Source: Propionivibrio soli
GTDB lineage: Bacteria > Pseudomonadota > Gammaproteobacteria > Burkholderiales > Rhodocyclaceae
Reading direction: 5' to 3'
NCBI RefSeq assembly: GCF_025770765.1
Contig: NZ_JANZKY010000006.1
Location: forward strand, 186,001 to 250,000
DNA length: 64,000 bases
The position numbers were made by a program, and so were the translations under genes. Each line of letters opens with the position of its first letter. The stretch's first letter is position 1. Under the pieces are notes generated by a model that saw only the letters and a list, made by a program, of their open reading frames with translations, ran no database searches and had not been told where the DNA came from. This document shows positions 3,946-21,577 of the stretch, piece by piece.

Positions 3946-4599
3946 TCAATATGACGAACAAACGGTATAAAGGGTAGCGTCATCGTTGGTGGTTAGGGCT
4001 GCCGGAAACGCCTCCGTAGATGCGCAGACCCCTTGGCAGATGACACGGACGTTTCCGGTGTTAGTGATGCCATCATCCATGGCAAGATCGAGTTGCCGCA
4101 CGAACCTCCCTTGGATATTGGTGGAACATACGAAAAAGTTGCCCGCCCAGCCACCGGCTCCCGTAAAGGGTGAGACGCCAGTAACCCCAATGTCCCCTCC
4201 CTCAGCATTGCGCGGAATGAAGTCGGCCCCGATAACCGTTGTGCCGGCAGCAAGATTGGCCCTGCGTACGTGGAGCCAGAAGTTGCAGGACTCACTTGGG
4301 CACGCGCCCCCTGCTGGCTCGGCGTTCCAATTCCCCTCGATGCGTCCATCTCCATCGCCGTTTGGGGTCCCCGCTCCGACGTGATCACTTGCGGCGCGAT
4401 CGTCACCCGGGAGTGCTCGGAATTTGTCTTGATAAGCGTAGACGAACGTCGGAATGGTCCGGAAATCGTTTGCGAGATTCTTGACCTTAGCGCTATTGAT
4501 CAACTCCTGGCCCTTCAATACTCCCCCAAGCAGCAAACCGATGATGACAAGTACAATGGCAATTTCTACGAGCGTGAATCCGGACTGCCGTCTTAACAT
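3946..4599 (-). CDS. Type IV prepilin-like protein with six cysteines
   Basis: A 217-residue prepilin. The N-terminus has a short basic leader, then G|FTLVE, the prepilin peptidase site with the conserved Glu5, and a long hydrophobic helix (pilin N-methylation motif). The mature globular domain has six cysteines (in PSESC-like, FVCS, ICQGVC and TVCSS contexts), so disulfides are likely. ATG 4599 is chosen because GGGGGAG lies just upstream; the longer TTG start would swallow that site. It stands apart at the far end of the MSHA-like locus, behind the divergent histidine kinase gene, and has its own sigma-54-type promoter. It may be the major subunit, since no other short pilin gene is present. 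That role is an inference. Confidence 0.85.
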   Translation of the reverse strand: MLRRQSGFTLVEIAIVLVIIGLLLGGVLKGQELINSAKVKNLANDFRTIPTFVYAYQDKFRALPGDDRAASDHVGAGTPNGDGDGRIEGNWNAEPAGGACPSESCNFWLHVRRANLAAGTTVIGADFIPRNAEGGDIGVTGVSPFTGAGGWAGNFFVCSTNIQGRFVRQLDLAMDDGITNTGNVRVICQGVCASTEAFPAALTTNDDATLYTVCSSY

Positions 4600-4638
4600 C
4601 GTGTTCTCCCCCAAGTGCAGATTTTCACGGTCCTATTA

Positions 4639-4654
4639 AGCATGTTACGTGCCA
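4639..4654 (-). promoter_or_regulatory. Sigma-54 (-24/-12) promoter of the prepilin gene
   Basis: The minus strand reads TGGCACG-N4-ATGCT. The GG and GC dinucleotides are separated by exactly 10 nt, as in RpoN promoters (consensus TGGCACG-N4-TTGCW). Transcription would start near 4628 and run into the GGGGGAG ribosome-binding site of the prepilin at 4599. An NtrC-family activator is encoded at the other end of the locus (19955-21427). Confidence 0.75.
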
Positions 4655-4690
4655 CGATTTTCAGGCCTCTTTGGCCGATTTCTCTTCTCA

Positions 4691-4728
4691 AAGTGTCGGC
4701 GGTTCGACACTTTTGTCGATATTTCGAC
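4691..4728. promoter_or_regulatory. Tandem dyads, candidate enhancer sites of the sigma-54 activator
   Basis: A perfect dyad AAGTGTCG-N6-CGACACTT (4691-4712) is followed at once by GTCG-N6-CGAC (4715-4728). The half-site TGTCG therefore occurs twice in each orientation with a constant 6-nt spacer. The pair lies about 40-75 bp upstream of the -24 element of the prepilin promoter and also upstream of the histidine kinase gene. That is a usual place for enhancer-binding proteins. Binding by the NtrC-type regulator of this locus is an inference. The first dyad is followed by four T residues on the plus strand, so a weak terminator is the alternative. Confidence 0.5.
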
Positions 4729-4775
4729 CAGTACCGCCAAGCGGTCGGCGGTATTCGCATACAGAGGCTAGGGGC

Positions 4776-6488
4776 GTGACGCCGCTTTGGCGCGTCGGGG
4801 TTTTTGTCCGCGAACGGCAGCGCTGGGTGCTGTTTTCGCTGATGGCGGTGCTTCATCTCACCTTGTTGGCTGGGTCCAACACCACGCTCGGGTTGATGCT
4901 CTGGTTCGTCGATCTCGGACTCTTCATCCTCTGGCAGCCGTTCATCCAGACGGAACGCAAGCTCGACACCGGGAACTTGTTCCTGTTCTCGGCGGTGTTG
5001 GCTGCCGGGGCTTGGCTTTTCGGGTGGTGGCTGATGATCCTATGGGTCCTGGTTCTCGCCGCACTCCTCGGCGGACGTGTGTTGCTGCTCGGCCATCTTC
5101 CGACCCGTTTGTTCTATTTGTTGGCGTTCGCGTATCTCCTCTGCGCCTTGCTGATGTGGCTTTTGCCACGGGTGGTTCCTCATGCGGATACAGGCGTGTC
5201 GCTCGATCAGGCATTCGCCTGGACGGCGCCGCTGATTTTCATAGGCATGTTGGTTCCCCGCCCTCGCGAGATTAGGCTGGTGAGTGGCGGCATAGTCGAT
5301 TTTTTTTACAGCCTCTTTGTCCTGTTGCTCGTTTCGGTTCTTGTGTTGGGCAGCCTTGCCTTCATGCTGCTTCGTCAGGCTTCGTATGTCGAGGCTGTTT
5401 TCAAGACGGCTGTCTCAATGGCGGTCATGCTGTTCCTCGTTGCCTGGGCGTGGAATCCGAGACCGGGGTTCAGCGGTATCGGCGTTTTCCTCTCACGTTA
5501 CGTGCTTGGCGTTGCCCTGCCATTCGAGACCTGGCTGCAGGGCTTGCTCGAATGCGCCGACAACGAGAATGACCCAGACCGGTTTCTCGAAGCGGCAGCA
5601 CGGCGTATCGCGGATCTCGCTTGGGCGACGGGGGCCGCCTGGGCACCAGCAAGCGGGGCGACGACGGTCGGCGCCGGGCGGGTGGGCGAGGAATCGCGCT
5701 TTCGCTCGGACTTTCCGGCGCAAACGCTCGTGCTGACGCTTTTTACCCCATACAAACTGAGCCCGTCACTTGTCTGGCATGTCAATCTCCTGGTGCGGCT
5801 TACCGGCGAGTACTACGTTGCCAAGCAGCGCGCGCGGGAATTGCAGCAAATGACGTATCTGAGCGCGATTCATGAGACGGGAGCGCGTCTGACCCATGAC
5901 GTGAAGAACCTTCTTCAGTCTTTGAACAACCTGTGCTTTGTGGCGCAGGAAGCGAGCGAGGCTGACGCGCCTCGTCTACATCAACTTTTCCAGCGGCAGC
6001 TTCCTCAGATTGCTCACCGCCTGGAGCGGACGCTGGCGAATCTACAAGCACCAAGGCGGCCGGAGGACGACGCCAGCGGAGCGATGCCTGTTCAAGCGTG
6101 GTGGGAGGGGCTCCGACAGCGTTATGCGTACGATGGTGTTCGTTTTGAGCCGGTGGTGTTTGATCCGGACATGGCGGTCCCGGCCCTCTTGTTCGATAGT
6201 GTCGCCGACAATCTTCTGCAGAATGCGCTGCTAAAGCGCCAAACGGAAGATCGTGTGGAAGTGGTCGTTTCGCTTAGCAAGGACGCAACACGTTTCAGGG
6301 TGATCGACTCCGGGACGGCGATCGACAAAGCCATCGAGGCTGACCTCTTGCGTGCGCCCGTACCGTCGGAAGAGGGGTTCGGCATCGGCCTTTACAACGC
6401 GGCGCGGCAAGCCGAGAGCTACGGATACCGACTGGCGCTGACGAACAATATCAACGGACGGGTCTGCTTTGAACTGACGCGAATGTGA
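4776..6488 (+). CDS. Multi-pass membrane sensor histidine kinase (PrsK-like)
   Basis: A 570-residue protein with about eight N-terminal hydrophobic segments (to about residue 240), a linker that may be GAF-like, and a C-terminal kinase core. The H-box is THDVKN, the N-box is DNLLQNAL, and glycine-rich boxes DSG and GFGIGLY follow. The layout resembles PrsK-type kinases that pair with sigma-54 response regulators. I chose GTG 4776, preceded by AGAGGCTAGGGG, over a TTG 35 codons upstream that would cover the dyads. The gene is divergent from the six-cysteine prepilin. No response regulator is adjacent; the likely partner is the NtrC-family protein at 19955-21427. That pairing is inferred. Confidence 0.85.
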   Translation: MTPLWRVGVFVRERQRWVLFSLMAVLHLTLLAGSNTTLGLMLWFVDLGLFILWQPFIQTERKLDTGNLFLFSAVLAAGAWLFGWWLMILWVLVLAALLGGRVLLLGHLPTRLFYLLAFAYLLCALLMWLLPRVVPHADTGVSLDQAFAWTAPLIFIGMLVPRPREIRLVSGGIVDFFYSLFVLLLVSVLVLGSLAFMLLRQASYVEAVFKTAVSMAVMLFLVAWAWNPRPGFSGIGVFLSRYVLGVALPFETWLQGLLECADNENDPDRFLEAAARRIADLAWATGAAWAPASGATTVGAGRVGEESRFRSDFPAQTLVLTLFTPYKLSPSLVWHVNLLVRLTGEYYVAKQRARELQQMTYLSAIHETGARLTHDVKNLLQSLNNLCFVAQEASEADAPRLHQLFQRQLPQIAHRLERTLANLQAPRRPEDDASGAMPVQAWWEGLRQRYAYDGVRFEPVVFDPDMAVPALLFDSVADNLLQNALLKRQTEDRVEVVVSLSKDATRFRVIDSGTAIDKAIEADLLRAPVPSEEGFGIGLYNAARQAESYGYRLALTNNINGRVCFELTRM

Positions 6489-6557
6489 CCGGCGCCTCGG
6501 CAAGGTTCCTCGCAACAACCATCCAACCAAGGCGTCGACTCTCGGGGGGCAGCCCCA

Positions 6558-7871
6558 TCAGATCGCGGCGGCACGCGCCGCGCCGGGAGCGCCTGTTTCA
6601 AACGCTGGCTTACGTCCGATAGCGCGATGCACGGCCGTGTTGCCTTTACCCTTGAGATAGAGGGTCTGCGGTCCTTCGAAGTCGAAGTGGTTCCGCAGCC
6701 GGCGATACGTTGTTTCGTCGACCTGGATGACTCCGGGGGCGCCCTCGTTCGTAATGCGGCTGGCGATGTTGACCGTGTCGCCCCATAGGTCGTAGATGAA
6801 TTTCTTCTTGCCCACGACGCCTGCAACGACGGGTCCGGTGCCAATGCCGATACGAATCTCAAGGCGTAGATGGTTGATGTCGAGATCGTGTTCGAGCAGG
6901 CGTTTCATCTCGAGCGCCATGTCCATCAATGCCTCGCAATAGTTCTCACAATCGTTGTTGAGGCCCCCAGCCACCATGTACGCGTCGCCGATCGTCTTGA
7001 TTTTCTCGAGCCCGTACTTCTCGGCGAGTTCGTCGAAGGACGAGAAAATCTTGTTCAGCATCGAGAATACTTGCTGGGGGCTCAACCCTTCGGCTACACG
7101 GGTGAAATTGACGATGTCGACGAACATCACCGATACGTCGGCAAAACCATCGGCGATCGTCTGATTACTGGCCTTCAACCGCTCGGCGACCGGACCGGGC
7201 AGGATATTGAGCAGCAGCCGCTCCGAGCGCTCTTGCTCTGCGAGCAACAAGGCATGGGCTTCCTGCAGGCGCGCCTGGGCGCGTTGTTTCTCCGTCGCGG
7301 AATAACGTAGCAGGAGGAAAACAATCGTCGATACGGCCGCAAAATTCAGTGCGAAGAAGAAGACGGAGGTTTCCGTCTTCACTTTTACCGGCACGCTGCC
7401 CAGCGAATCGGCGAGGTAATAATCGAAGGTCCCCGAGAGCGCTGTGAGGAACAGGTAAGCAAAAAACCACGCTAGCGCATCACGCGGCCCGATAAAGAGA
7501 ACCGCCCCGATCGGCGCGAGGAGCGCCCATAGGCTGACGCCGCTCGCGCTGATGAAGTTTCCCATGCTCCATTGCGCGACAAACGGCATGAAGAGGAACA
7601 GGGCCAACTGCGTTTGCCGGAAGAGATCGAAGTTCGATGTCTTGATGTAGATGGCCAGATTGCCAACGAGCAACAGCTGGAACAGAAAGGGAATCGTCGA
7701 TGAGAATTGCGGACCGAGTTGCCAATAAATGAACAACCACAGCATCGAGGCAAAGCTGATCAGCCCGGTGGCGAACACCAGCAGCGATTTCTGCAGGCGC
7801 AATTCCTCCGAATCCGTCGGCAGGATGCCGGCATGGCGGAGACGGGTGAGGAAGGGGGAAGGGGCGTTCAT
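6558..7871 (-). CDS. Class III adenylate cyclase with N-terminal membrane domain
   Basis: About 437 residues. The first ~200 carry five or six hydrophobic segments, then a short helix, then a class III cyclase catalytic domain (about 235-410). The metal-binding aspartates are in VMFVDIVNF and IGDAYMV. The adenine-selecting Lys is in EKIKTIGD, and WGDTVNIASR carries the transition-state Asn and Arg. Retention of Lys and Asp points to cAMP, not cGMP. The frame stays open to a GTG at 7976. ATG 7871 follows an AGG at a good distance and ATG 7892 is also possible. It lies within the pilus locus, downstream of the pseudopilin genes and in the same direction. Which signal it senses is unknown. Confidence 0.88.
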   Translation of the reverse strand: MNAPSPFLTRLRHAGILPTDSEELRLQKSLLVFATGLISFASMLWLFIYWQLGPQFSSTIPFLFQLLLVGNLAIYIKTSNFDLFRQTQLALFLFMPFVAQWSMGNFISASGVSLWALLAPIGAVLFIGPRDALAWFFAYLFLTALSGTFDYYLADSLGSVPVKVKTETSVFFFALNFAAVSTIVFLLLRYSATEKQRAQARLQEAHALLLAEQERSERLLLNILPGPVAERLKASNQTIADGFADVSVMFVDIVNFTRVAEGLSPQQVFSMLNKIFSSFDELAEKYGLEKIKTIGDAYMVAGGLNNDCENYCEALMDMALEMKRLLEHDLDINHLRLEIRIGIGTGPVVAGVVGKKKFIYDLWGDTVNIASRITNEGAPGVIQVDETTYRRLRNHFDFEGPQTLYLKGKGNTAVHRAIGRKPAFETGAPGAARAAAI

Positions 7872-8033
7872 TGCAGCGCCTGACGACGTCATGGGAGTAC
7901 GGATCGATTTGACTCCAAAGAATGGTCGCGGGTCAAGGCGCGGTTGAAAGCCAATGGTCGTGGAGCGATGCGCCACTGCCTCGCTCAGAGGCGCTTGTAG
8001 GCAATGAATGAAGGGCGCCGTGGATTAGCGTGC

Positions 8034-8732
8034 TCAGGGTAGGCGACTAGCGGAAAGCATCTTGTGCATGAGGATCAACGGCGGAACCCAATTCACCTGA
8101 TCGTCGAAGGTCCCAACGAGTCCCTTGCTGACATAGGAATGATCTGCATCGCTGTTTTCCTGTTCGTCGGTGTCGGTCGGCAGGGACTGTCGCGTGCCAT
8201 CTGGCATATAGGCACCTAAGCCGTTCTTCCCATGTGAGAGGAAGAGAGCGGGTATCGCTGTCGCCACTGTCGACCCGCCCGCTGTACTGAGGACGTTGAT
8301 GTTCCCATTCGTCGCCAAATCGAACGCGGCGGTTTTTCCGGGCGCGATGGTCTTAGCGAAATCGTCCGCGACGTGATAGGTAAAACGCCTTCCCCAAGCA
8401 TCGGTTTCCGGCAAGCCGAGGGTGATCCAAGGCAACACGCCGGACGTGCTGGTTGTGCATCCGCTCGCCGTTGCGGCGTACTCAACACCAGCGCCGGCCG
8501 TCCCGGTGGCCGTTGTTGGCGCCGCCGGGCAGGGCAGCCGGCCGTTCACCGCCGCGAAACCGATCAGTGCATCCCGCGCGTCGTTGAGCTTTTGTTGCGT
8601 TTCGTTGGCGTTTCGCTGATCGATTTGAGCGGATAAAGGGGGCATCAAGGTGCCAATCAGCAGTCCTACGATCACGAGGACGATCGCCAGTTCGACGAGT
8701 GTGAAACCCCGCAGCGAAGCTCGCGTTTTCAT
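8034..8732 (-). CDS. Prepilin-like protein (pseudopilin) with LPCP module
   Basis: A 232-residue prepilin with leader RG|FTLVE and a hydrophobic helix ending near residue 28. The large mature domain contains the motifs GRLPCPA, LPW...LGLP and NGLGA and ends without an obvious C-terminal disulfide loop. It lies 19 bp downstream of a second pseudopilin gene, and the globular parts of the two share an ordered set of motifs, so they are probably distant paralogues. Likely a minor pilin or tip subunit of the MSHA-like fibre. It is not close to MshA, B, C or D as far as I can see. Confidence 0.8.
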   Translation of the reverse strand: MKTRASLRGFTLVELAIVLVIVGLLIGTLMPPLSAQIDQRNANETQQKLNDARDALIGFAAVNGRLPCPAAPTTATGTAGAGVEYAATASGCTTSTSGVLPWITLGLPETDAWGRRFTYHVADDFAKTIAPGKTAAFDLATNGNINVLSTAGGSTVATAIPALFLSHGKNGLGAYMPDGTRQSLPTDTDEQENSDADHSYVSKGLVGTFDDQVNWVPPLILMHKMLSASRLP

Positions 8733-8751
8733 GGCTGGAGAAGATGAAGAG

Positions 8752-9747: not shown

Positions 9748-9749
9748 GA

Positions 9750-10232
9750 TTACCTGGTGGCCGGCTTGCGAATGATCTGGCCATTGATCAGGCGGCTTGC
9801 CTCGCCGCTCTGCGGATCGATGGTATCGCCCACCTTGGCTGTGGTTGCAGGCCCACCTGCCGCGTCGATGGTTACCGTGGCGGGGTCTCCGCGCCGCGGT
9901 TTTGCGACTGTTGCGCCGGTGGCTGAGTTCTCGTTTTGCGCTTCACCGTTGACCCAGACCGTTCGGCGACCGCTACTGCGTGTTACGACGCCATTTACCG
10001 TTAGCGAGGGTTCCTGGTCTACTTCGCGCTTCTCCAGGATGTTGTGGTCCCGCTGGTAATCGAGTTGTTGCCGTTGCTCCGGTGTGAAGAACAGTCGCCC
10101 GAGCGGCTGTTCTGCCGCCGCAGGCCCCGTGACAAACAACGCAAGCAGGCAAACCAGATTCACGGAGCGGGACCGCTTCCTGGTGACCTTTTCTGGGAAG
10201 AAGGCGAAGGGAGCACGAGTTCGTGCGCTCAT
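9750..10232 (-). CDS. MshK-like pilus alignment protein
   Basis: A 160-residue exported protein with a basic start, a hydrophobic segment ending in an Ala-x-Ala site (GPAAAEQ, near residue 38), and a beta-rich region (VNGVVTRSSGRRTVWVNGE, about 75-95). Position after the PilO/MshJ-like gene and the short periplasmic domain match MshK, which is thought to connect the inner-membrane platform to the secretin. I chose ATG 10232, which overlaps the upstream stop in ATGA. The name rests on context and architecture; sequence similarity to known MshK is probably low. Confidence 0.65.
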   Translation of the reverse strand: MSARTRAPFAFFPEKVTRKRSRSVNLVCLLALFVTGPAAAEQPLGRLFFTPEQRQQLDYQRDHNILEKREVDQEPSLTVNGVVTRSSGRRTVWVNGEAQNENSATGATVAKPRRGDPATVTIDAAGGPATTAKVGDTIDPQSGEASRLINGQIIRKPATR

Positions 10233-10822
10233 TTTCCCGCGGCCTCGCGCAAGGTGACCCAATCGATTTCGCAGTCCGCCTGCAGATTAACGGGGGAGCC
10301 CCGATCTGAAGCGTTGGCTGCCCGTTTCACGGTACAACTTCTGACCTGGATCAGTGCGCTGGCGCGCTGACGAAGATCGCTGATGAAACGGGTAAGGTCT
10401 TCTTCGTGCAGTAGTCCAAGTTGCAGTTTCATCGGGCTGGCGAAAAAAGCGAAACGTCCGGATTCACCGCTCAGTTTTTGTTGCGGAGCAATTTCGTAGC
10501 GCATTTCGACAAGCCCCCGTTGGCTGCGTATGTCGTCGAGCAGTTCCGCCCACGTGAGTCGCTGTTCGTCGCCGACGATGCCGCGTTGCTTCATCGTTGC
10601 GTATGCCGCGGATTGCAGCCGTATATCGGCCTCCTCGCTGCGTGCTCTCTGCAATTTCTTGGCGAAATCGTCGCGCTCCGCTTGTGCCTGCGCATAAGCC
10701 GACCTCGTAGCGTTGGCCGACTGCAGTGCGGCATAGACCAAGAGCCCGCCGATAGCCATCATGCCGATCGCGGCGAGGAGGCTGAACTGCAGCTTTGGCA
10801 AGTCGGAACGGTCCATCTTCAT
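10229..10822 (-). CDS. MshJ-like (PilO/GspM-type) inner-membrane protein
   Basis: A 197-residue bitopic protein: a short cytoplasmic start, one membrane segment (about 13-33), a coiled-coil-prone helix rich in Arg, Gln and Glu (about 40-75), and a small C-terminal domain with one disulfide-capable pair of cysteines. This is the PilO/GspM plan. It overlaps the MshI-like gene upstream and the MshK-like gene downstream by 4 bp each. It probably dimerises with the PilN-like part of its upstream neighbour in the alignment complex. Confidence 0.7.
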   Translation of the reverse strand: MKMDRSDLPKLQFSLLAAIGMMAIGGLLVYAALQSANATRSAYAQAQAERDDFAKKLQRARSEEADIRLQSAAYATMKQRGIVGDEQRLTWAELLDDIRSQRGLVEMRYEIAPQQKLSGESGRFAFFASPMKLQLGLLHEEDLTRFISDLRQRASALIQVRSCTVKRAANASDRGSPVNLQADCEIDWVTLREAAGK

Positions 10823-12345
10823 GCGGGCAATTTCCTGGTGATGCTCACACTGAAAGGCCGTGGCGAGTCGTCTTCGATCCGGGTATCGCCGCCTTTGAGG
10901 ACTTTCGCCGATTCGATGTCGAAGGGGCGCTGGATGACCTCGATCTGCAATTCCGGATTGTCACGTAGCGCCTGGACGAACATGTCGAACGTCGCCAGAA
11001 CCTGCCGGGCATTCGCTCTGTCCCCGTATCTTATGACGCCACGTACGACAGCTATCTCACCCCCCATGGCCTCGGGGGAAGTACGCGGTTGCGCCGCCGG
11101 TTTGTCAGCAGCTACGAGCTTCCACTCGATCGACTCGATATCCGCGGCTGGCGTGACCTGCAACGCGCGACTAATCTCGTGGAATAGATCGTCAGGGCTG
11201 CGGCTCTTTTGCTCCATTTGCCCGTAACGCTCGATCGCCGTACGCAAGCCGGCGTCATTTCCCGGTGTTGGCGGGAAACTACGCACGATTTGCGCATAAC
11301 GTTGCTGAGCGAGCGCGGCGTCAGCGCGAAGTGCTGTCGTTTCTTGGGCGATCGAGTAGGTGTCGAAAGCCGTTTTGCCAGCGACGAGTAGGCACGCGAG
11401 AAGCGCAACCGCTCCAATGCCCTGAAACGTCTTCCGGATCAGGCGAACATGAAAGCCGTGGCGTGGTTCGTCACCTGCAAACTGTACGCGCGGCGGCCTC
11501 GTCGCCAGTAGATTGAGGAAAAGCTCTTCGCTGTGGCTGCTTGCCGGCGTTGTCTTGAGCCCGGTTCTTTTCGCGCATTCCTCAATATCGACAAAGCTGT
11601 AGCGGATGGTCGACGACGCGGTGCACGCTTCTTCGATTGCCTTCAACGCATTACGGTGAGCCACGATATAGGCTGTCAGCGGTTGATGGCGCGTTACGAG
11701 GCGCTGGCTGGCGAGGTACTGTTGAAGTTTTGGCGCTTCGGTGGCTAGGTTCCGCGCAAGGTCGCCGATGCTGCTATGGTGGATCTGGGCCAAGCGGCTG
11801 AAATGCAGTTCGCCCTTTGCGATGTAGCTCTGCCGGATGCTGTGATCTTGGACGGTCAGCACCAGGCAGGCGTCGCTGTTCAGGCTAAGCTTTCGAAGCA
11901 GTGGGGGCACGAGTTGAGGCAGCGAATAAACGCCAGCGAGCGCCGCGTCCTGAGCGACGAAAATGTCCAGCCAAGGGGACAGTAGACCGTCGTTCGTCAG
12001 CGCCGCAAATAGGATTTTTTCGTTCTTGCGCTGTTCTTTTTCTGTGCCTAGCGAGAAAGCGGCTTTCAAGCCCGCGCCGAAGAAGAGTTGGTCGAGCTTG
12101 CGTGCGATCACTGCCTGCCGATCTCCTCCCCGGAGGAAGGGGATGGTATCGACCTGATATCCTTCCTCGGAAACATTGACCAGCATTGAGAAGACGCTTG
12201 ACCCGTTGCGCACCAGGTAATCGTTGAACTCCCGGTACCCATTGTCCGTGTTCGGGAACGTCGCTTCGCTGGTCAGCCTTCCCGAAAGATAGCGGTAGGC
12301 GACCATCTGATGGGCGCTGAGATAGAGTAGGCGGTGAGTCGTCAC
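10819..12345 (-). CDS. MshI-like protein, PilM-PilN fusion architecture
   Basis: A 508-residue protein. The first ~290 residues are soluble and resemble the actin-like fold of PilM/GspL, although no clear nucleotide motif can be seen. One membrane segment follows (about 308-325), then a helical region and a small alpha/beta domain as in PilN. The GspL-like single-chain layout is that expected for MshI. It is separated by 24 bp from mshG and overlaps the MshJ-like gene. The role would be to couple the cytoplasmic ATPase to the periplasmic alignment complex. Confidence 0.7.
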   Translation of the reverse strand: MTTHRLLYLSAHQMVAYRYLSGRLTSEATFPNTDNGYREFNDYLVRNGSSVFSMLVNVSEEGYQVDTIPFLRGGDRQAVIARKLDQLFFGAGLKAAFSLGTEKEQRKNEKILFAALTNDGLLSPWLDIFVAQDAALAGVYSLPQLVPPLLRKLSLNSDACLVLTVQDHSIRQSYIAKGELHFSRLAQIHHSSIGDLARNLATEAPKLQQYLASQRLVTRHQPLTAYIVAHRNALKAIEEACTASSTIRYSFVDIEECAKRTGLKTTPASSHSEELFLNLLATRPPRVQFAGDEPRHGFHVRLIRKTFQGIGAVALLACLLVAGKTAFDTYSIAQETTALRADAALAQQRYAQIVRSFPPTPGNDAGLRTAIERYGQMEQKSRSPDDLFHEISRALQVTPAADIESIEWKLVAADKPAAQPRTSPEAMGGEIAVVRGVIRYGDRANARQVLATFDMFVQALRDNPELQIEVIQRPFDIESAKVLKGGDTRIEDDSPRPFSVSITRKLPA

Positions 12346-12369
12346 TTCGGTTGTCTGGATCGCGCGCGA

Positions 12370-13572: not shown

Positions 13573-13579
13573 CGCGTTC

Positions 13580-15286
13580 TTACATTCGGTCGGTGAGGTC
13601 GACGACGCGGGCGAGTTCTTCAAGCGACGTCGACCCGTCGAGAACTCGTCGCAGGCCGTCGTCGGCGAGCGACACGAAGCCTTGATGCTCCGCGAGGTTG
13701 CGGATCTCCCGCGCAGTGCTGCGCCGGGCGATCAATTCGTCCATGTCGCCATTGATACGCAAGATTTCCATGATCGCCAAGCGGCCACGGTAGCCCTGGA
13801 AGTCACAGCGCTCGCATCCGCACGGCCGATAGATCAGAGGCCGGCTCGCATCGCCGGCGCGGCCGAGCAACCGTGCTTCATGGGCTTCAGCGTGATACGG
13901 GGTCTTGCAATGGATACATAAACGGCGAACGAGTCGCTGCGCCACGACGCCGATCACATTGCCCGCGAGGATGTCGGGCAGGATGCCAATGTCAAGCAAG
14001 CGGGGAATCGCCCCGATCGCCGAATTGGTATGCAGAGTCGAGTAAACCTGGTGGCCGGTCATCGCCGCCCGTACGGCCATTTCGGCTGTATCGGCATCGC
14101 GGATTTCACCGACGAGAATGACGTCCGGATCCTGGCGCATCATTGACCGGATACCGTTGGCGAAATCCAGCTTGGCGGTTTCCGCGACGGATGTCTGGCG
14201 CACCAACGTCATGGGATACTCGACTGGATCCTCGAGCGTCATGATGTTGAGGCCCTCGGAATTGATGTGGTTGAGTATCGAGTAGAGGGTCGTTGTCTTT
14301 CCGCTACCGGTTGGCCCCGTAACGAGAATGATCCCTTCCGGGCGTGCGATCATCAATTTCAGCTGATCGAGCTGCTTTTCCGTCAGGCCGAGCCCTTCGA
14401 GAGGAACGAGCCCCTTCTGGCGATCCAGGATGCGCAGCACGATGTTCTCGCCGTGGATCGTCGGCTGTGCCGAAACGCGAAAGTCGATCTGGCGACCGCG
14501 CATGTTGAGCGAGATCCGTCCGTCCTGGGGGGCGCGCGTCTCGGCGATGTTCATCCCACTCATCACCTTGATGCGCACGGCCATTGCCGGCCAGTACGAT
14601 TGATGCAGCGAGCGTACCTGGCGCAACATGCCATCGATCCGATAGCGGATGCGCAGGAATCCCGTCTCAGGTTCGAAATGGACGTCGGATGAGTCGCGTT
14701 TGACCGCGTCGGTCAGGATGGAGTCGATCAACCGGACGACCGGTTGGCTGTACTCGTCAGCCGATGACTGCAAACCGCGAAAATCGATCTCTCCGGTTTC
14801 GATTTCATGCAGGATACCGTCGATCGAGAGCTCGTAGCCGTATGCCAGGTCGATGGCGCGATCGATCTCCGTCTCACCCGCCAACAGCGTTTCGATTTCG
14901 AGCCCTGGCTCGGCCAGCCCCCGAATCTTGTCCAGGGCGACGATGTCGTTGACATCGGCCAAGGCGACCGTCAGGCGGTGTTCATCGACGTCGTAATCGA
15001 GCGGCAGCAGGTGATGACGTTTGGCGAGTTCCCGTGGGACCAGCGCTAGCGCCGAAGGATCGATGATCGCGTTGGAAAGGTCGATGCTTTGTTTGCCGAG
15101 ACTTTCCGAAAGCGCATCGCGGAGTGTGGCCTCGGAAACGAAGCCAAGGGATACCAGCAGCTTGCCAACCGGCTGGTTGGATTTCATCTGCTCGAGCAGG
15201 GCGATCCTCAGCTGGTCTTCGCTGAGGATGCCTTTGGCGATCAGCACTTGGCCGAGCTGGCGTTGCTGGGGGGCGGGAGCGTTCAT
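13580..15286 (-). CDS. mshE: MshE, pilus extension ATPase with MshEN domain
   Basis: A 568-residue GspE/PilB-family ATPase. The N-terminus carries an MshEN-type domain: a 24-residue pattern at residues 10-33 (LG, L15, G19, L26, L30, Q33) and a weaker copy at 39-62. In MshE of Vibrio such repeats bind c-di-GMP. Here the first position is Gln instead of Arg and the second copy has VG and ends in Ser. The catalytic part has Walker A GPTGSGKTTT, Walker B ILVGEIRD, and a four-cysteine zinc site (CIHC and CGCERC). It powers pilus polymerisation. Whether c-di-GMP still binds is uncertain. Confidence 0.92.
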   Translation of the reverse strand: MNAPAPQQRQLGQVLIAKGILSEDQLRIALLEQMKSNQPVGKLLVSLGFVSEATLRDALSESLGKQSIDLSNAIIDPSALALVPRELAKRHHLLPLDYDVDEHRLTVALADVNDIVALDKIRGLAEPGLEIETLLAGETEIDRAIDLAYGYELSIDGILHEIETGEIDFRGLQSSADEYSQPVVRLIDSILTDAVKRDSSDVHFEPETGFLRIRYRIDGMLRQVRSLHQSYWPAMAVRIKVMSGMNIAETRAPQDGRISLNMRGRQIDFRVSAQPTIHGENIVLRILDRQKGLVPLEGLGLTEKQLDQLKLMIARPEGIILVTGPTGSGKTTTLYSILNHINSEGLNIMTLEDPVEYPMTLVRQTSVAETAKLDFANGIRSMMRQDPDVILVGEIRDADTAEMAVRAAMTGHQVYSTLHTNSAIGAIPRLLDIGILPDILAGNVIGVVAQRLVRRLCIHCKTPYHAEAHEARLLGRAGDASRPLIYRPCGCERCDFQGYRGRLAIMEILRINGDMDELIARRSTAREIRNLAEHQGFVSLADDGLRRVLDGSTSLEELARVVDLTDRM

Positions 15287-15334
15287 CGGGCGGTTGGGGC
15301 GAACGCGAAAAATGACATGGAGAGCCTGCCAGAA

Positions 15335-16654
15335 TCAAGGTTGCAGTTCAAGAATTCGCCGCTGAGCCTGATTCTTGTCAAACGACGCATGGTCGGCCGT
15401 TGGCGCTTCCAGGGCCATGCGGTAGTACTGCGCCGCCAATTTGCTTTGTCGCAAGTGGTCGAGACTAACTGCCAGGTTGAAGATGAAATCGGCGTTATCC
15501 GGGGTCGTGCCGTAAGCCTGGAAGTAGGCCTGCTGCGCTTCGCTCCAGCGCGCTTCGCGTGCGTAAAGATTGCCAAGTGCGAAAAGAACGGCCGGCGAGT
15601 TCGGTTGGCTCGCGAGGGCGAGTTTCAGGCGACTTTCCGACATGGCGGGATCGCTTTGGCCTGCTGCGTTGAGCAGACCGGCTTGAGCGGTGGCGTCGGT
15701 CGGGTCCGACTCCAATGCCCTTTCATAGAAGGCGCGGGCACGGTCACGTTGCCCCTGCCGACTGGCGATCGTTGCCAAGCCCAGTAGCGCGTCGGTGTTT
15801 AGCGGATCGCGCCGCAGGGCCAGTTCATAACCGCGTTGTGCCTGATCGAGGTGGCCTGCTTGCAGATCGTCGTAAGCGTGTTCGAGCGTCGGATTGGCTG
15901 CCGGTTCGGTTCTGCTGAGTCGGACAGGGGGTTCTTCGACGGCAGACGCCGTCGTGCTCTTTTGCCGAGCCGTCGTACTCGGGGTAGCGGCTGGCTGAGT
16001 GGCCGACTGCGTTGAGTCCACGCGCATCGGGAGAGACGGAGCAGGAGAGCGAGAGGGCGGCCTCAGGGACTCGGCATTCGCCGACTGTGCGGCTCCGGTG
16101 GCCGCCAGCGACACCGGCTCTGGGCGCTTAGCTTCGGGTGGATTTGCTGGTGTTGGTTCTGGCCTTGCGATCGATGGGGCGGGCGGTTGCGATACAGCTG
16201 GGCGGAGATTGCCGGCACTCGATAGGCCGTTCAGTTGCCACCAAAAATAGGCGGCAATGGCGAGCAGGGCGGCACCGCCAATCCCGATGAGAATCCACAG
16301 CCCATTCCGCGGTTCGTTCGCTTTCTTGGCAGCGAAGGCATTCTGCACTGTGGCGCGATCTTCGCGATCGCTTGCTCGCGGTTCGGATCGCGCATTTCCT
16401 GATTTTGAGGAGGTCGTCGCCGTTCGACGGCGCGGAGGAGGTTCGGTTGACACAGCCGCTAGGTCCGCGTCAACCGAGGCGATGTGCAATGAAAGGTCAG
16501 GTAACGGTGATCCGTTGCTCGGTTTCGAAGGCGATGGCGCATCAGGGATCAGGGCCAGCGGAGGTATCGTTCCCGGCGGCGTTGCTTCCGAGTTGTCGAT
16601 CGCCTTGCGCTTGGCTTCTTCGGCTTTTTTGAGCGCCTCCATAAGCAGGCTCAT
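15335..16654 (-). CDS. MshN-like TPR protein
   Basis: A 439-residue protein: an N-terminal cytoplasmic helix (SLLMEALKKAEEAKRKA), one membrane segment near residues 120-140, a long Pro/Ala/Ser-rich periplasmic linker (about 145-250), and C-terminal TPR repeats (about 255-439) with motifs such as ALLGLATIASRQG and AVLFALGNLYAR. This is the MshN plan. It overlaps mshL by 4 bp. MshN-type proteins are thought to assist secretin assembly or placement. The linker is compositionally biased and gives little evolutionary information. Confidence 0.8.
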   Translation of the reverse strand: MSLLMEALKKAEEAKRKAIDNSEATPPGTIPPLALIPDAPSPSKPSNGSPLPDLSLHIASVDADLAAVSTEPPPRRRTATTSSKSGNARSEPRASDREDRATVQNAFAAKKANEPRNGLWILIGIGGAALLAIAAYFWWQLNGLSSAGNLRPAVSQPPAPSIARPEPTPANPPEAKRPEPVSLAATGAAQSANAESLRPPSRSPAPSLPMRVDSTQSATQPAATPSTTARQKSTTASAVEEPPVRLSRTEPAANPTLEHAYDDLQAGHLDQAQRGYELALRRDPLNTDALLGLATIASRQGQRDRARAFYERALESDPTDATAQAGLLNAAGQSDPAMSESRLKLALASQPNSPAVLFALGNLYAREARWSEAQQAYFQAYGTTPDNADFIFNLAVSLDHLRQSKLAAQYYRMALEAPTADHASFDKNQAQRRILELQP

Positions 16655-18450
16655 TTGAGTTGCTCCTGCGGGTCGGTCGGGCCGGAGAACGGCTGGTAAA
16701 CCTTGTCGGTCTGGAAAAAGCCGTTATCAGGGAGTGCGTTGCCGAACTGCTTGAAGTCGCCATTGATCGACGCGTCTTTGATCACCGTTGGGCGCAGAAC
16801 AACCACGAGTTCGGTCTTCGTCGAGGCGTTGTTTCGCGTTGTGAAGATTTCTCCGAAGAGGGGCACATCGCCAAGACCCGGGAAACGGCCGCTCTTGTTT
16901 TCCATCCGGTCTTCCATCAGCCCGCCGAGCACGGCCACATCGCCGCTCTGAACGCGCAGCATCGATTCGATCTCCCGTGTCCGGATCTGAGGAACTTCGT
17001 TGGCTACCGTCAGTGCGGGATTCGGGTCCTGTTTGAGGGCTGCAATGCTCGATATTGAAGGGCGGACGTTGAGCGTTACCATCCCGTCCTCGCCGATCTG
17101 CGCGGTCAGGCTCATAAAGAACCCAATCGAGACCGATTGGGGGGTTGTCGTTGTTGTCGTCGTCGCGTTGGTATTGGTGTTTCCTGGGACAACGTCCTGC
17201 TTGACGTTGAAATACACAAAGTCTTCCGAAACCTTGAGCGTTGCCGTCTGGTTGTTGAGGACGGTGAGCTTGGGGCTGGAAAGTACTTTTGTGGTGCCAA
17301 AGCTTCGCAGCATGTCGACGAACACTTCCAGACCGCTTGAGACGTTTCGGTAAATAAGCCCGAAGGGGGACACCGAGGAGCCGACCGTTGCTGTATTCGT
17401 TGCGCGGGTCAGCGAGAAGCCTGTCTGCGACTCCGCCTTTGCCCAATCGATACCCTGCTGGTAATTGTCGGCGAGGCTGACTTCAATGATCGTCGCTTCG
17501 ATCAGAACCTGCCGTTTGGCGCTGCGGATGACGCGATCGATGAACTCCTGGACTTTCTCGTGTTGGCGGGCCGTGGCGCGCACGGTAATGACCCCCGATT
17601 CGGGGCTGGCAATGACTGAGGCGGCCTCTCGGAACGTCATCCGTCGCACCACGGTGGCCCCGCTATTCTGCATGGCGGCGGGGTTCGGGCTACCTGCGAG
17701 GGTCTGGTTAATTTGCGCGCCCCGCGTGGTGTTGATTGTCTGTGATGCCGTTCCGGTACCGGTGGTGGTTTGGGATGTGTTCTGCTCCATTACCGTTTCG
17801 GTCGAGCCTTCGGGGAAGACTTTGTCGGTTTCGTGCAAGAGATCCTTGAGGTTCTTCTCCAGCGATTCCCAGAAACGGTTTTTCGACTTGTTCTCGATCT
17901 GAATGCGCGAAACGTTGCTTCCGGCCGTTGAATTTGTCGTCCCGGCCACCGATCCCGTCGATATCTGAGTGTTAGTTGAGACCGTGCCGACCACGTCACG
18001 CGCGACGTTGATGTAGTCCACCGTGTAGTTTTTCAGGTAAGGCGTATCGGGCATTACCACCAGATTGGGCCCGTCAAGCTCAAAACGCATGTCGACTTGT
18101 TTGGCAATCCGGGTCAGCAACTGCGGCAATGTCTGGTCGATGGCGTTCAGCGTCACATTCCCTGTAATTCCAGGGTGGATGTCGACGTTCAGCTTTGCAT
18201 CTCGAGCAAGTGCAAAGAGAAGGTCCTGCACTTTGACGTTATTCACGACCACACTATAGGTTTCGGTACGCCCCGTCGTTTTTGGTCGGGGAAGCGGGAC
18301 CGTATTCTGAACCGGTGCAGGGATCGATCCCTGGGAGGCGGTTACATTTTCTTTACGTAAATGCCCGGCCGATGGGCCACCGTTCAGCGTCGTCGGCGTA
18401 CACGCAGCCATAAGAAGCATCATTAATGATGCGCCGACAAATCGAAGCAT
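16651..18450 (-). CDS. mshL: MshL, secretin lipoprotein of MSHA-like pilus
   Basis: A 599-residue outer-membrane secretin. It has a lipoprotein signal with lipobox MAAC (Cys18 or so), an STN/N0 domain (motif VQDLLFALARDAKLNV), a Thr/Asn/Ser/Gln-rich stretch near 230-270, and a C-terminal secretin domain including VPQIRTREIES and the LGGLMEDR...PGLGDVPLFG signature. ATG 18450 is preferred because GAG lies 7 nt upstream and the Arg-containing signal starts there; ATG 18471 is the longest option. It forms the pore through which the pilus emerges and is coupled to mshN by a 4-bp overlap. Confidence 0.92.
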   Translation of the reverse strand: MLRFVGASLMMLLMAACTPTTLNGGPSAGHLRKENVTASQGSIPAPVQNTVPLPRPKTTGRTETYSVVVNNVKVQDLLFALARDAKLNVDIHPGITGNVTLNAIDQTLPQLLTRIAKQVDMRFELDGPNLVVMPDTPYLKNYTVDYINVARDVVGTVSTNTQISTGSVAGTTNSTAGSNVSRIQIENKSKNRFWESLEKNLKDLLHETDKVFPEGSTETVMEQNTSQTTTGTGTASQTINTTRGAQINQTLAGSPNPAAMQNSGATVVRRMTFREAASVIASPESGVITVRATARQHEKVQEFIDRVIRSAKRQVLIEATIIEVSLADNYQQGIDWAKAESQTGFSLTRATNTATVGSSVSPFGLIYRNVSSGLEVFVDMLRSFGTTKVLSSPKLTVLNNQTATLKVSEDFVYFNVKQDVVPGNTNTNATTTTTTTPQSVSIGFFMSLTAQIGEDGMVTLNVRPSISSIAALKQDPNPALTVANEVPQIRTREIESMLRVQSGDVAVLGGLMEDRMENKSGRFPGLGDVPLFGEIFTTRNNASTKTELVVVLRPTVIKDASINGDFKQFGNALPDNGFFQTDKVYQPFSGPTDPQEQLK

Positions 18451-18471
18451 ATCCATTCTCGATTCTTGCAT

Positions 18472-18548
18472 TGATTAGATGATATCACGCATTGGTTGTC
18501 TGAAAACCCTCTTGTTTTGTAAAACACTTATTGTTGTTAACAAAACTA
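18472..18548 (-). promoter_or_regulatory. AT-rich gap upstream of mshL, possible internal promoter
   Basis: This 77-bp gap is the largest within the msh gene run and is much richer in A and T than its surroundings. It contains a 7-bp inverted repeat (GTTTTGT at 18514-18520, ACAAAAC at 18540-18546). Weak sigma-70-like hexamers can be picked out on the minus strand but none is convincing. It may hold a promoter for mshL onward or a hairpin that tunes expression after mshM. Confidence 0.3.
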
Positions 18549-19955
18549 TTAGCGTAGTTTATCAACAGTTCTTATGTATGCCCCGTTTGCCGCACCAATG
18601 GTGGTAAGTTTTTGCAGATCTGATCTGGCCGCTTCTAACGTAGCGTACTCTCCATAGATTACGCCCAAGCGGTCTCGGCCGCTGAGGCGTGATCTGTAAA
18701 CGCGAATTTTCTCTGCTTCGAGTTTCCTCGTGGCGCCGCTGATGAACACTTCGATGTCCTGTCTGTTTTCGGCGGCCGTGCTCACCAATTGAATAAAGTA
18801 ATGGTTCCCGGGTGCATGGCTGAGCCAAGCTTCGGTCGCCTCAATTCGTTGATCGAGGGTCATTGGGAGGGGGAGGGGGTTACTTTGCGTCGCCGCGAGC
18901 GTTTTCCCCGCTGTTTCCCCCGGCTCAACATTCGATGAGGTGGGCATCTGCTTAACATCCGCGTTTGCCTCGGCAAAAGAGGCTTTTGTGGCCATAGTCG
19001 CTACCGATGTCTCGGCGCGAGGAGCGGCGATAACGGGCTCATGAGGGCCTGTCGTGTAATTGCCGGCCAAATAGGCGATTGCCGCTACCGCCACAACGGT
19101 CACCGCGCTGCCGACCCAAAGAGGGCGCGGCAAGCGCCCAGACCGGATCGGATTGAACTGTGCGTCCCGAACAGCCGCCTTGACCTGCTTGGCATCAACG
19201 AAGTGCCGGTCTTCCGAGAACGCCGCTAGCAGAGCTTTGTCCGCCAGAATGTTGATGCGGCGCGTTAGGCCTTCCGAGGCACGGGCGATCAACTGGATGG
19301 CCCCGGGCGAGAAGATATCAGGGCCTCGGTATCCGGCCGCGCGCATGCGGAACATGAGATACGTACCGATGTCGGCGCGGCGTAGTGGCTCAAGCGCGAA
19401 GTTGTGCGTGATCCTTTCCTTCAGCTGCCGCATGCTGGGCACGGCAAGGTAGTCGTCGAGCTCCGGCTGCCCGAAAAGAACGATATGAAGTAATTTGTGC
19501 CGGCTCGATTCGAGATTGGAGAGAAGCCTGATCTCTTCGAGCGTTTCTGGCGGCATCGCGTGCGCTTCGTCGACCATGACCACGACAATTCGCCCGGTTG
19601 CGTAGATTTCGAGCAAACGCTCCTGTAGTGCGCGGAATGCCGCGTGGCCGGTCGGTAGGCGCTCCTTTGTGTGTAGTTCCTCGGCAACCGCATGCACGAT
19701 TTCTTCCCGGGAGAGCGAAGGATTTGCCAGGTAGACTGTTTCGACATTCTCCGGAAGCCGTTCAAGCAGCATGCGGCAAAGCATGGTCTTTCCGCTACCC
19801 ACTTCACCGCTGACCTTGACGATTCCTTCGTCGTGCGTTACGGCGTAGATCAGGGCTTCAAGCGTTGCGCCGCGGTTGGCTCCGGCGAAAAAGAACTCGG
19901 TGTGCGGCGTAATGCTGAATGGCGCTTCCCTGAGTCCGAAATGTTCGAGGTACAT
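18549..19955 (-). CDS. mshM: MshM/ExeA-like AAA ATPase fused to a SPOR domain
   Basis: A 468-residue protein that opens YLEHFGLREAPFSI, typical of the GspA/ExeA/MshM ATPases. Walker A is GEVGSGKT (about residue 50) and Walker B is VVVMVDEAHA. One membrane segment follows (about 275-297), then a linker and a C-terminal SPOR-like domain (about 385-468), which binds denuded glycan strands of peptidoglycan. Family members use ATP and peptidoglycan contact to make room for the secretin. The start ATG overlaps the response-regulator stop by one base (TGATG), so the two are co-translated. Confidence 0.88.
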   Translation of the reverse strand: MYLEHFGLREAPFSITPHTEFFFAGANRGATLEALIYAVTHDEGIVKVSGEVGSGKTMLCRMLLERLPENVETVYLANPSLSREEIVHAVAEELHTKERLPTGHAAFRALQERLLEIYATGRIVVVMVDEAHAMPPETLEEIRLLSNLESSRHKLLHIVLFGQPELDDYLAVPSMRQLKERITHNFALEPLRRADIGTYLMFRMRAAGYRGPDIFSPGAIQLIARASEGLTRRINILADKALLAAFSEDRHFVDAKQVKAAVRDAQFNPIRSGRLPRPLWVGSAVTVVAVAAIAYLAGNYTTGPHEPVIAAPRAETSVATMATKASFAEANADVKQMPTSSNVEPGETAGKTLAATQSNPLPLPMTLDQRIEATEAWLSHAPGNHYFIQLVSTAAENRQDIEVFISGATRKLEAEKIRVYRSRLSGRDRLGVIYGEYATLEAARSDLQKLTTIGAANGAYIRTVDKLR

Positions 19956-21427
19956 CAGTGCCCCCTGGCCGAAGCTTCCATCCTGTTGTATAGCGTGGTG
20001 CGGTTGATCCCGAGCAACCGCGCTGCCTGACTGACATTTCCGTGCGCGAGTCTCAACGCTGCTTCAATATAGTTGCGCTCGGTCTCGGCGAGCAACTGGT
20101 CGAGGTTGAATGGTTCGGTCTTCTGCAGGCGGCGACTGGCTTCGGCCACCAGCGTTTCGTTTGTTGCAGCAGCTGGCTGGCCGTCGAGAGGCGCTGATAC
20201 GCGGGGGTCGTCCTGCAGGTCCAGTTCGTCTTCCAGAGCCCTCCGTGAAACGGTCTGGCCGGGAAACTTGGCTGTCAGGCGTATCACGATGTTGCGCAAC
20301 TCGCGCACGTTGCCCGGGAATCCATAAGCGGTCCACAGGCTTTCGGCTTCTTCCGATAGCGCAAAAGGTATTTGCCGCGATTGGGTCGCGTAGCGCTGGC
20401 GAAAGTGATCAAGCAGGAGCAGCTTGTCGCCTTCCATGTCCCGTAGCGGCGGCACGCTGACGGAGAATACAGACAGGCGGTGGTAGAGGTCGGCGCGGAA
20501 GTTTCCCGTCCTCACTTCCTTGCGCAAGTCCCGATTAGTGGCAGCGATGATGCGGGCACGGCTGAGACGCTTGCTGGTTTCTCCGACGCGCTGATATTCG
20601 CCGTTCTCAAGAACTCGCAGCAGCTTTGCCTGCAACTCGAGCGGCAGTTCGCCAATTTCATCCAGGAAGAGCGTTCCCTCCGCTGCGTCCTCGAAATACC
20701 CGGATTTGGCCATCGTTGCGCCGGTAAAGGCACCTTTCGCATAGCCAAACAGCGTCGGTTCGACCAGATTGGGAGAGATGGCGGCGCAATTGAGGGCTAG
20801 GAATGGTTGGGTTGATCGTTGTGTGTCGTAGTGCAGGCACTGACTCGCGACGATTTCTTTGCCACTCCCCGATTCACCCTCGATTAGGACCGGAAAAGGT
20901 GAGTTCGCGTATTGCTGCAATTGCAGTCGGAGCTTGCGAATTGCGGCGCTATCGCCAATCAGCGATGGAGGTATGCGTTCTGGCGCCGAGGCTTCATCCA
21001 GTGCGCGGTAACTGAGCGCGCGTCGTAGAACCCTCTGCAATTCCGGCGGGTTGCACGGCTTGGCGACGAAATCCACTGCGCCCAAGGTGCGCGCGTGCCG
21101 GGCGTTGTCGGCATCGCTTTGTCCGGAGAGGACGACGATCTTGATCGACGGTGCGAGCTTTAGCAGTTCGGGGATTAACGCGAGCCCCTCGTCGGGCCGG
21201 TGGGGGAAGGGGGGGAGGCCAAGATCGACCAGAGCTACATCCGGGCTACGGCGCAGCTGGCGCAGCAACTGAATGCAGTGCGGGCGCGAATGACTGGTGA
21301 TGACTTCGTAAGAGGACGTCAGTGAAAAACTCAGTGTGTCGGAAATCAGCGGATCGTCGTCCACGACGAGAAGCAGCGGTTTTTCCGGCCAGACGGTTTC
21401 CGGGGCGTCGGTCATGGAAGGCGTCAT
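19955..21427 (-). CDS. NtrC-family sigma-54 response regulator (PrsR-like)
   Basis: About 490 residues: a receiver domain (acidic DDD near residue 23, phospho-acceptor Asp68 in ALVDLG, Lys123 in VAKP), an AAA+ domain with Walker A GESGSGKE, the sigma-54-contacting GAFTGA loop and the DEIGELP motif, and a C-terminal Fis-type helix-turn-helix (NVSQAARLLGINRTTLYNR). The receiver resembles PrsR-type regulators. It leads the pilus operon and should activate the RpoN promoter at 4639-4654, about 15 kb away. The start is uncertain: ATG 21427 has a weak GGA site, while 21451 and 21415 are alternatives. Confidence 0.9.
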   Translation of the reverse strand: MTPSMTDAPETVWPEKPLLLVVDDDPLISDTLSFSLTSSYEVITSHSRPHCIQLLRQLRRSPDVALVDLGLPPFPHRPDEGLALIPELLKLAPSIKIVVLSGQSDADNARHARTLGAVDFVAKPCNPPELQRVLRRALSYRALDEASAPERIPPSLIGDSAAIRKLRLQLQQYANSPFPVLIEGESGSGKEIVASQCLHYDTQRSTQPFLALNCAAISPNLVEPTLFGYAKGAFTGATMAKSGYFEDAAEGTLFLDEIGELPLELQAKLLRVLENGEYQRVGETSKRLSRARIIAATNRDLRKEVRTGNFRADLYHRLSVFSVSVPPLRDMEGDKLLLLDHFRQRYATQSRQIPFALSEEAESLWTAYGFPGNVRELRNIVIRLTAKFPGQTVSRRALEDELDLQDDPRVSAPLDGQPAAATNETLVAEASRRLQKTEPFNLDQLLAETERNYIEAALRLAHGNVSQAARLLGINRTTLYNRMEASARGH

Positions 21428-21577
21428 CGATCCAGAAAGCGGTAAAAGCATTATTCCATATTTTGTGCGTTCAACCGATTCAAATGCTCTTGGCCGTTGG
21501 GTGAGAATGATTTCAGGCCGGTGGCATGTTTGATGTGCTTGGCCTGAGGCACTTTTTGGGGAGCCTCGTCATTAAGG

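Follow-up and report, generated by a model that had tools for sequence, protein, structure and literature searches.

Is an MSHA-like (mannose-sensitive haemagglutinin) gene run that carries its own histidine kinase, response regulator and cyclase simply its host's MSHA pilus, or is it a second machine with a private switch? The question is raised by a locus in Propionivibrio soli (assembly GCF_025770765.1, contig NZ_JANZKY010000006.1), within the 64,000-nucleotide stretch from position 186,001 to 250,000, here called the window. On the minus strand lie genes for a regulator, M, L, N, E, G, I, J and K (lettered after their msh counterparts), a 331-residue prepilin, a smaller prepilin and a cyclase, followed by a plus-strand kinase and a minus-strand distal prepilin. 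An open reading frame check found all 14 of 14 genes in the order and on the strands given by the initial annotation of this DNA, with Pfam and NCBIfam matches wherever families exist. The locus probably encodes a second MSH-class type IV filament machine, with a regulated sigma-54 switch on a type IVb-like major pilin and a variable tip.

The initial annotation read the locus as the host's version of the MSHA pilus, and held that a full classical set elsewhere in the genome would speak against this. Essentially such a set lies on contig C32 (32260-50826; L064 and L065), in the order E-G, four to five small prepilins, P, a 1657-residue Q-like protein with B_ant_repeat and TafC-type matches, I, J, L, M and N; its letters were assigned from gene order and by eye, and K and F were not identified. 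The pilin block B-A-C-D-O-P-Q is not recognisable in the window and, by the same reading of order and by eye, has its match there. Searching the host genome with the MshL model returned two equal best secretins at 247.4 bits, one in the window and one at C32:34488-35399. The window protein scores 244.4-247.4 bits against a cut-off of 250.2; because the host's classical copy also misses it, at 244.8, this equivalog score is non-discriminating here. In a tree of assembly ATPases (54 rows), 41 window-type sequences form one clade (100/100) and five classical ones another (100/100), with PilB and GspE apart; with five classical rows in the tree, these two clades are joined at 63/77 only. A secretin tree (43 rows) likewise separates 35 window-type sequences (98/99) from four classical ones (100/99), the two types being joined at 93/91. 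Two secretins at or above the MshL cut-off were found in 9 of 94 genomes of the class. Judged by sequence, the window locus probably encodes a second, distinct MSH-class type IV filament machine; it is not the host's MSHA locus. The proposed separation from the PilA-type pilus is supported by a PilB encoded elsewhere in the host and placed in the same ATPase tree. The host also carries an orphan 610-residue PilB/GspE-class ATPase (C3:14020-15177, L067) on a very long branch, with no adjoining pilus genes. In genome G617 (L273:3303-19357) a window-type run from M to K, with both minor prepilins and the distal prepilin, is followed directly by classical-type I, J and L, in tandem.

How general this arrangement is was gauged with an MshI profile, which (at E 0.001, own genome included, some matches partial) matched in 116 of 150 genomes of the window's GTDB family (searched with a single protein query), 195 of 399 of the order and 74 of 369 of the class. 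Among the carriers with names are Candidatus Accumulibacter, Dechloromonas and Azonexus, and culturable relatives with the full set include Dechloromonas agitata and D. hortensis. Family loci were chosen through this match, so the presence of the core is partly a result of selection. The suggested gene-order comparison came out positive: in 106 of the 108 loci with at least five run genes (window included), every gene found keeps its order and orientation, and what sets the two exceptions (L115, L164) apart is solely a regulator-like gene at another position. Of 31 loci taken to be complete at both ends (30 of them with the Kef flank in view), all have L, E, G, I, J and K, and the distal prepilin is found in 30, the large prepilin in 29, N and the minor prepilin in 28 each, M in 23, the cyclase in 20, the regulator in 19 (including the out-of-place copy of L164) and the kinase in 17. 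Conserved linkage of the flanking genes, as first proposed, holds for the distal prepilin, and kinase, regulator and cyclase are optional; the whole set is carried by 17 of the 31. Regulator and kinase occur together in 17 complete loci, neither in 12, the regulator alone in 2 and the kinase alone in none. Among 20 order and class loci, 18 have the regulator, 14 the kinase and two a cyclase (one weak and on the other strand). From these counts kinase and regulator appear to be old partners, and the cyclase mostly a feature of the window's family. The Mla flank was not seen in the 11 class loci. Within the genus, one relative (G141, L096) has kept the core and the distal prepilin but lacks regulator, M, N, kinase and cyclase; a second (G052, L082) shows only E, G and I, on a contig that is broken and has foreign genes upstream of them; and a third (G105) gave no MshI match. 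L164 and L276 have, between the minor and distal prepilins, a regulator and kinase of a different, weakly matching kind.

What the kinase and regulator might control is suggested by the DNA before the distal prepilin. A scan for TGGCAC-N5-TTGCW (GG and GC fixed, at most two mismatches) within 150 bp of this gene found a sigma-54 promoter-like site in 23 of 24 loci with both regulator and kinase, against 2 of 16 without a regulator (Fisher p = 7e-8). The single locus with a regulator only had none, and where the regulator end lay out of view, sites preceded the distal prepilin in 6 of 6 loci with the kinase and 1 of 8 without. Permuted motifs (332) matched a mean of 0.27 and at most 7 of the 24 loci, and the opposite strand matched 0 of 24. 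Named genomes, which overlap the family set, had the site in 31 of 32 kinase-bearing loci. Within 350 bp upstream of ten other genes there was no clear excess (1-8 sites, against 1.4-5 by shuffling); the largest counts, before L (8 of 102, 4.1 expected) and the response regulator (5 of 59, 2.7 expected), are about twofold. Since loci lacking the regulator are scattered over at least three positions in the ATPase tree (L107 next to L121; L172 next to L137; and a group of L161, L166, L176 and L178), the link between regulator and site does not reflect one event. The new result is that this promoter-like site tracks the presence of regulator and kinase.

A candidate activator site, the palindrome TGTC-N8-GACA, lies upstream of the promoter. 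When spacings of 0-20 between TGTC and GACA were tried within 250 bp, only 8 occurred. The exact palindrome is present in 12 of the 24 loci with both genes (0.03 expected) and in 0 of 16 without the regulator; with one mismatch, the counts are 21 of 24 (2.0 expected) and 1 of 16 (1.1 expected). There are 28 such sites across 2.03 Mb of these loci altogether, and the window's copy is the only one in its 64 kb. Position 6 is A in 34 of 36 exact sites at these loci. Palindrome and promoter lie at preferred distances of 39, 48-52 and 72-73 (26 distinct combinations), which differ by roughly one and by two to three helical turns; none of 5000 random sets was equally regular, a result that relatedness helps. 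The host genome as a whole has the motif pair at two places, the window locus and, with a different core, C34:35059. In Dechloromonas denitrificans (G062), where the distal prepilin lies outside the locus, a motif-pair search found a homologue (262.9 bits) starting just after the pair on another contig, as predicted. A literature search returned no description of locus or palindrome, which is weak evidence of absence as most subscription journals lay outside its reach.

The distal prepilin matches type IV pilins in structure: the first 22 of 27 listed matches are pilins or pseudopilins, with a Foldseek E of 6.7e-5 to 9iuf_A. Its model resembles TcpA, CofA and PilA1, in a comparison without an MshA model; it is modelled as type IVb-like and is probably the major pilin. 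The 331-residue protein, called a pseudopilin in the initial annotation, does look prepilin-like: its AlphaFold2 model (predicted local distance difference test score, pLDDT, 88.6) has one long N-terminal helix at residues 9-67. Across loci its length ranges from 257 to 1222 residues and some copies bear lectin-like segments, making it a candidate tip adhesin; the copy in the window itself is short and carries no recognised module. In the long copies of Dechloromonas relatives (A5), the two conserved halves are separated by long insertions rich in Ala and Leu that are probably coiled coils.

On this proposal, the kinase would sense a signal and phosphorylate the regulator, which would bind the palindrome and open the sigma-54 promoter of the distal prepilin. 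If the pair acts there, the machine would be kept ready and its major subunit alone switched on. The type IVb-like prepilin would then build the fibre, with the large minor prepilin at its tip carrying a variable adhesive module. Cyclic di-GMP (c-di-GMP), through the motor, and in this lineage cyclic AMP, through the cyclase, may tune activity, and for prepilin peptidase and retraction motor the system would depend on other loci; an open frame next to pilB and pilC, picked out by eye, is a candidate peptidase. Of the self-regulated fibre initially proposed, its own regulation is supported by the sigma-54 site, the palindrome and gene linkage, while the fibre itself is a prediction; its likely job would be attachment or cell-cell aggregation, in keeping with the attachment or floc formation first suggested. 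More tentatively, and somewhat short of an even chance, these loci may form an unnamed, class-wide filament family parallel to MSHA, type IVa pili and type II secretion systems (T2SS) in motor divergence. It would keep a ready machine whose private kinase-regulator pair switches only the type IVb-like major pilin through one phased sigma-54 promoter, and a fast-evolving modular tip pilin, with lectin-like and phage-fibre-like domains in some lineages, would give each lineage its own adhesion targets.

Several observations weigh against this proposal. L158 has regulator and kinase without a site within 150 bp, its two-mismatch site lying 187 nt upstream, and among order and class loci the site precedes the gene in 4 of 6 that have both genes and in 0 of 2 without them. 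The genomes compared are related and hence not independent, which makes the p values and the distance test overstate the case, and the palindrome-promoter distances form mainly two clusters. Many loci that keep the machine lack regulator, kinase and cyclase, and 12 complete loci have neither of the first two. The structure search gave no clear match for the large prepilin model. The motif pair also occurs elsewhere, with matches in 66 of 150 genomes, often with the core TGTCGC..GCGACA, which resembles NifA sites; a NifA-type activator is a less probable alternative. The G062 search gave six pairs, of which one was examined, chosen for its locus-type core. Clusters of pairs with the TGTCGC..GCGACA core among the family genomes, such as G060:C1:4038234-4111266 and G053:C1:1320713-1357855, look like NifA-controlled nif genes.

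The most direct challenge to the switch is that another sigma-54 activator (NifA, PrsR or PilR) drives the pilin, with regulator and kinase as passengers. NifA half sites read TGT-N10-ACA, which the palindrome fits; similar motif pairs with another core lie elsewhere in relatives, and the host genome encodes a true PrsK (863.4 bits) outside the locus. Yet site and regulator are gained and lost together, the A at position 6 marks nearly all exact sites here, and the published PrsR motif (17 nt, ending TTTACA) is unlike the palindrome; we therefore regard this alternative as unlikely.

The machine itself could be read differently. A T2SS-like pseudopilus that exports substrates in place of a surface fibre would draw on gene sets that overlap with those of pili, and both the below-cut-off match of the minor prepilin to GspG and the GspK-like N terminus of the large prepilin, seen by eye, would suit it; we consider it quite improbable. 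That the locus is simply the host's MSHA pilus with its genes shuffled would account for MSHA counterparts of L, M, N, E, G, I, J and K, for a window secretin scoring like the classical copy (244-247 bits) and for the joining of the two L types in the secretin tree. It is nevertheless highly improbable, given the near-complete classical locus on C32, the separate supported clades of both E and L, and the class genomes holding two MshL-level secretins, with both loci in tandem in G617.

Around the second MSH-class machine, Mla transport genes (21599 on) and a Kef-type exchanger (1959-3926) form the flanks. The kinase, first described as divergent, is so relative to the distal prepilin; with the cyclase it is convergent. 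Families matched are an NtrC-type sigma-54 response regulator, AAA ATPase (M), MshL-type secretin, tetratricopeptide repeat (TPR) protein (N), GspE/PilB-class ATPase with MshEN domain, T2SSF platform protein, class III cyclase, histidine kinase and two N_methyl prepilins. No Pfam family scored above its cut-off for I, J, K or the 331-residue protein, which are named from position, size and conservation. No prepilin peptidase is among the Pfam and NCBIfam families matched by the locus proteins. The claimed sigma-54 gene is likewise absent from the locus, the host's two rpoN genes lying on contigs C5 and C31. The regulator carries GAFTGA at residue 240, and its best NCBIfam is TIGR02915 PrsR (364.5 bits, below the cut-off of 502.6); that of the kinase is TIGR02916 PrsK (49.4 bits, far below 300). 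The assembly ATPase exceeds the cut-off of NF053729 (57.6 against 38 bits) and matches MshE 5htl at its N terminus (E 2e-13). The cyclase carries FVDIVNFT, KTIGDAYM and DLWGDTVNIASR. Elsewhere in the host, the kinase gene pairs C4:23650/C13:67398 and C4:43445/C13:87193 have identical scores and the same spacing, indicating a repeated segment or assembly redundancy.

Table 1. Features of the locus, in window coordinates.
Feature	Position	Strand	Basis
Sigma-54-dependent response regulator	19955..21451, likely start 21415	-	Receiver PF00072, AAA PF00158, Fis-type helix-turn-helix PF02954
MshM-like AAA ATPase	18549..19955	-	PF13401; TIGR03015 206 bits, below cut-off 324.5
MshL-type secretin	16651..18471, likely start 18423	-	PF00263; TIGR02519 244.4 bits (cut-off 250.2); tree
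MshN-like TPR protein	15335..16654	-	TPR families
Assembly ATPase, N-terminal c-di-GMP-binding (MshEN) domain	13580..15286	-	PF00437, PF05157; tree
Inner-membrane platform protein (MshG/PilC/GspF)	12370..13623, likely start 13572	-	PF00482
MshI-like protein, 508 aa, PilM+PilN type by position and size	10819..12345	-	Family-genome matches, alignment
MshJ-like (PilO-type) protein	10229..10822	-	Position, size, conservation
MshK-like (PilP-type) protein	9750..10262, likely start 10232	-	Position, size, conservation
Large minor prepilin, candidate tip pilin, 331 aa	8752..9747	-	AlphaFold2 model; N terminus PilX/GspK-like by eye
Minor prepilin	8034..8732	-	PF07963; TIGR01710 (GspG) 41 bits, below cut-off 88.85
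Class III nucleotide cyclase, probably adenylate cyclase	6558..7976, likely start 7871	-	PF00211, E 1.2e-53
Histidine kinase	4671..6488, conserved part from ~4827	+	PF02518
Distal prepilin, predicted major pilin	3946..4614, likely start 4599	-	N_methyl prepilin
Sigma-54 promoter-like site TGGCACGTAACATGCT	4639..4654	-	55 nt upstream of distal prepilin start
Palindromic activator-site candidate	4690..4713	.	TGTC-N8-GACA at 4694-4709 within 9+9 bp inverted repeat

Type IV filaments are classed into a few named types. If our reading is right, a widespread Gamma/Betaproteobacterial filament lineage, found in Accumulibacter and Dechloromonas, has so far been counted as MSHA or gone without a name, and the same cell can hold a window-type machine and a true MSHA. 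The circuit is directly testable, as it comprises one kinase, regulator, palindrome, promoter and pilin. Accumulibacter is a key phosphorus-removal organism, and a switchable aggregation fibre would bear on its granule formation. This relevance is suggested by a granule-forming Accumulibacter enrichment in which pilus proteins are among the abundant proteins of one extracellular cluster, the available part of the report leaving unsaid which pilin (PMC12019908).

Set beside known systems, the locus is MSH-like in its machine: the MSH pilus modelled by Denise et al. 2019 combines mshE, mshG, mshL and mshM with an MshA pilin and no locus prepilin peptidase (PMC6668835). Judged by Pfam and NCBIfam families, the window holds the same four genes together, and it shares L, M, N, E with a c-di-GMP domain, G, an I-J-K-like set and the missing peptidase. 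It differs in gene order, in lacking recognisable mshB, C, D, F, O and Q, in its larger type IVb-like distal prepilin and own kinase, regulator and cyclase, and in E and L proteins of separate clades, co-resident with a classical locus. For its control, PilS/PilR offers one parallel, a membrane kinase and sigma-54 regulator acting on pilA of type IVa pili. Here, too, such a pair would act on a major pilin gene, but machine and pilin are different and the window kinase matches PrsK best, if weakly. PrsK/PrsR offers another, with sigma-54 control of PEP-CTERM genes and the PrsR upstream motif given above (Haft et al. 2006, PMC1569441). Kinase and NtrC-type regulator are related, and a sigma-54 site with an upstream motif precedes a surface-protein gene in both; unlike that system, the window pair falls below both equivalog cut-offs, the upstream motif is different, the target is a pilin and a separate PrsK exists in the host. 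At the predicted tip, the large prepilin recalls Streptococcus sanguinis PilB and PilC, modular pilins with an adhesive module, lectin-like in PilC (PMC8179133). Some copies are likewise pilins with an added module, whereas here the machine is a diderm one of the MSH class and the window's pilin is a short form without a recognised module.

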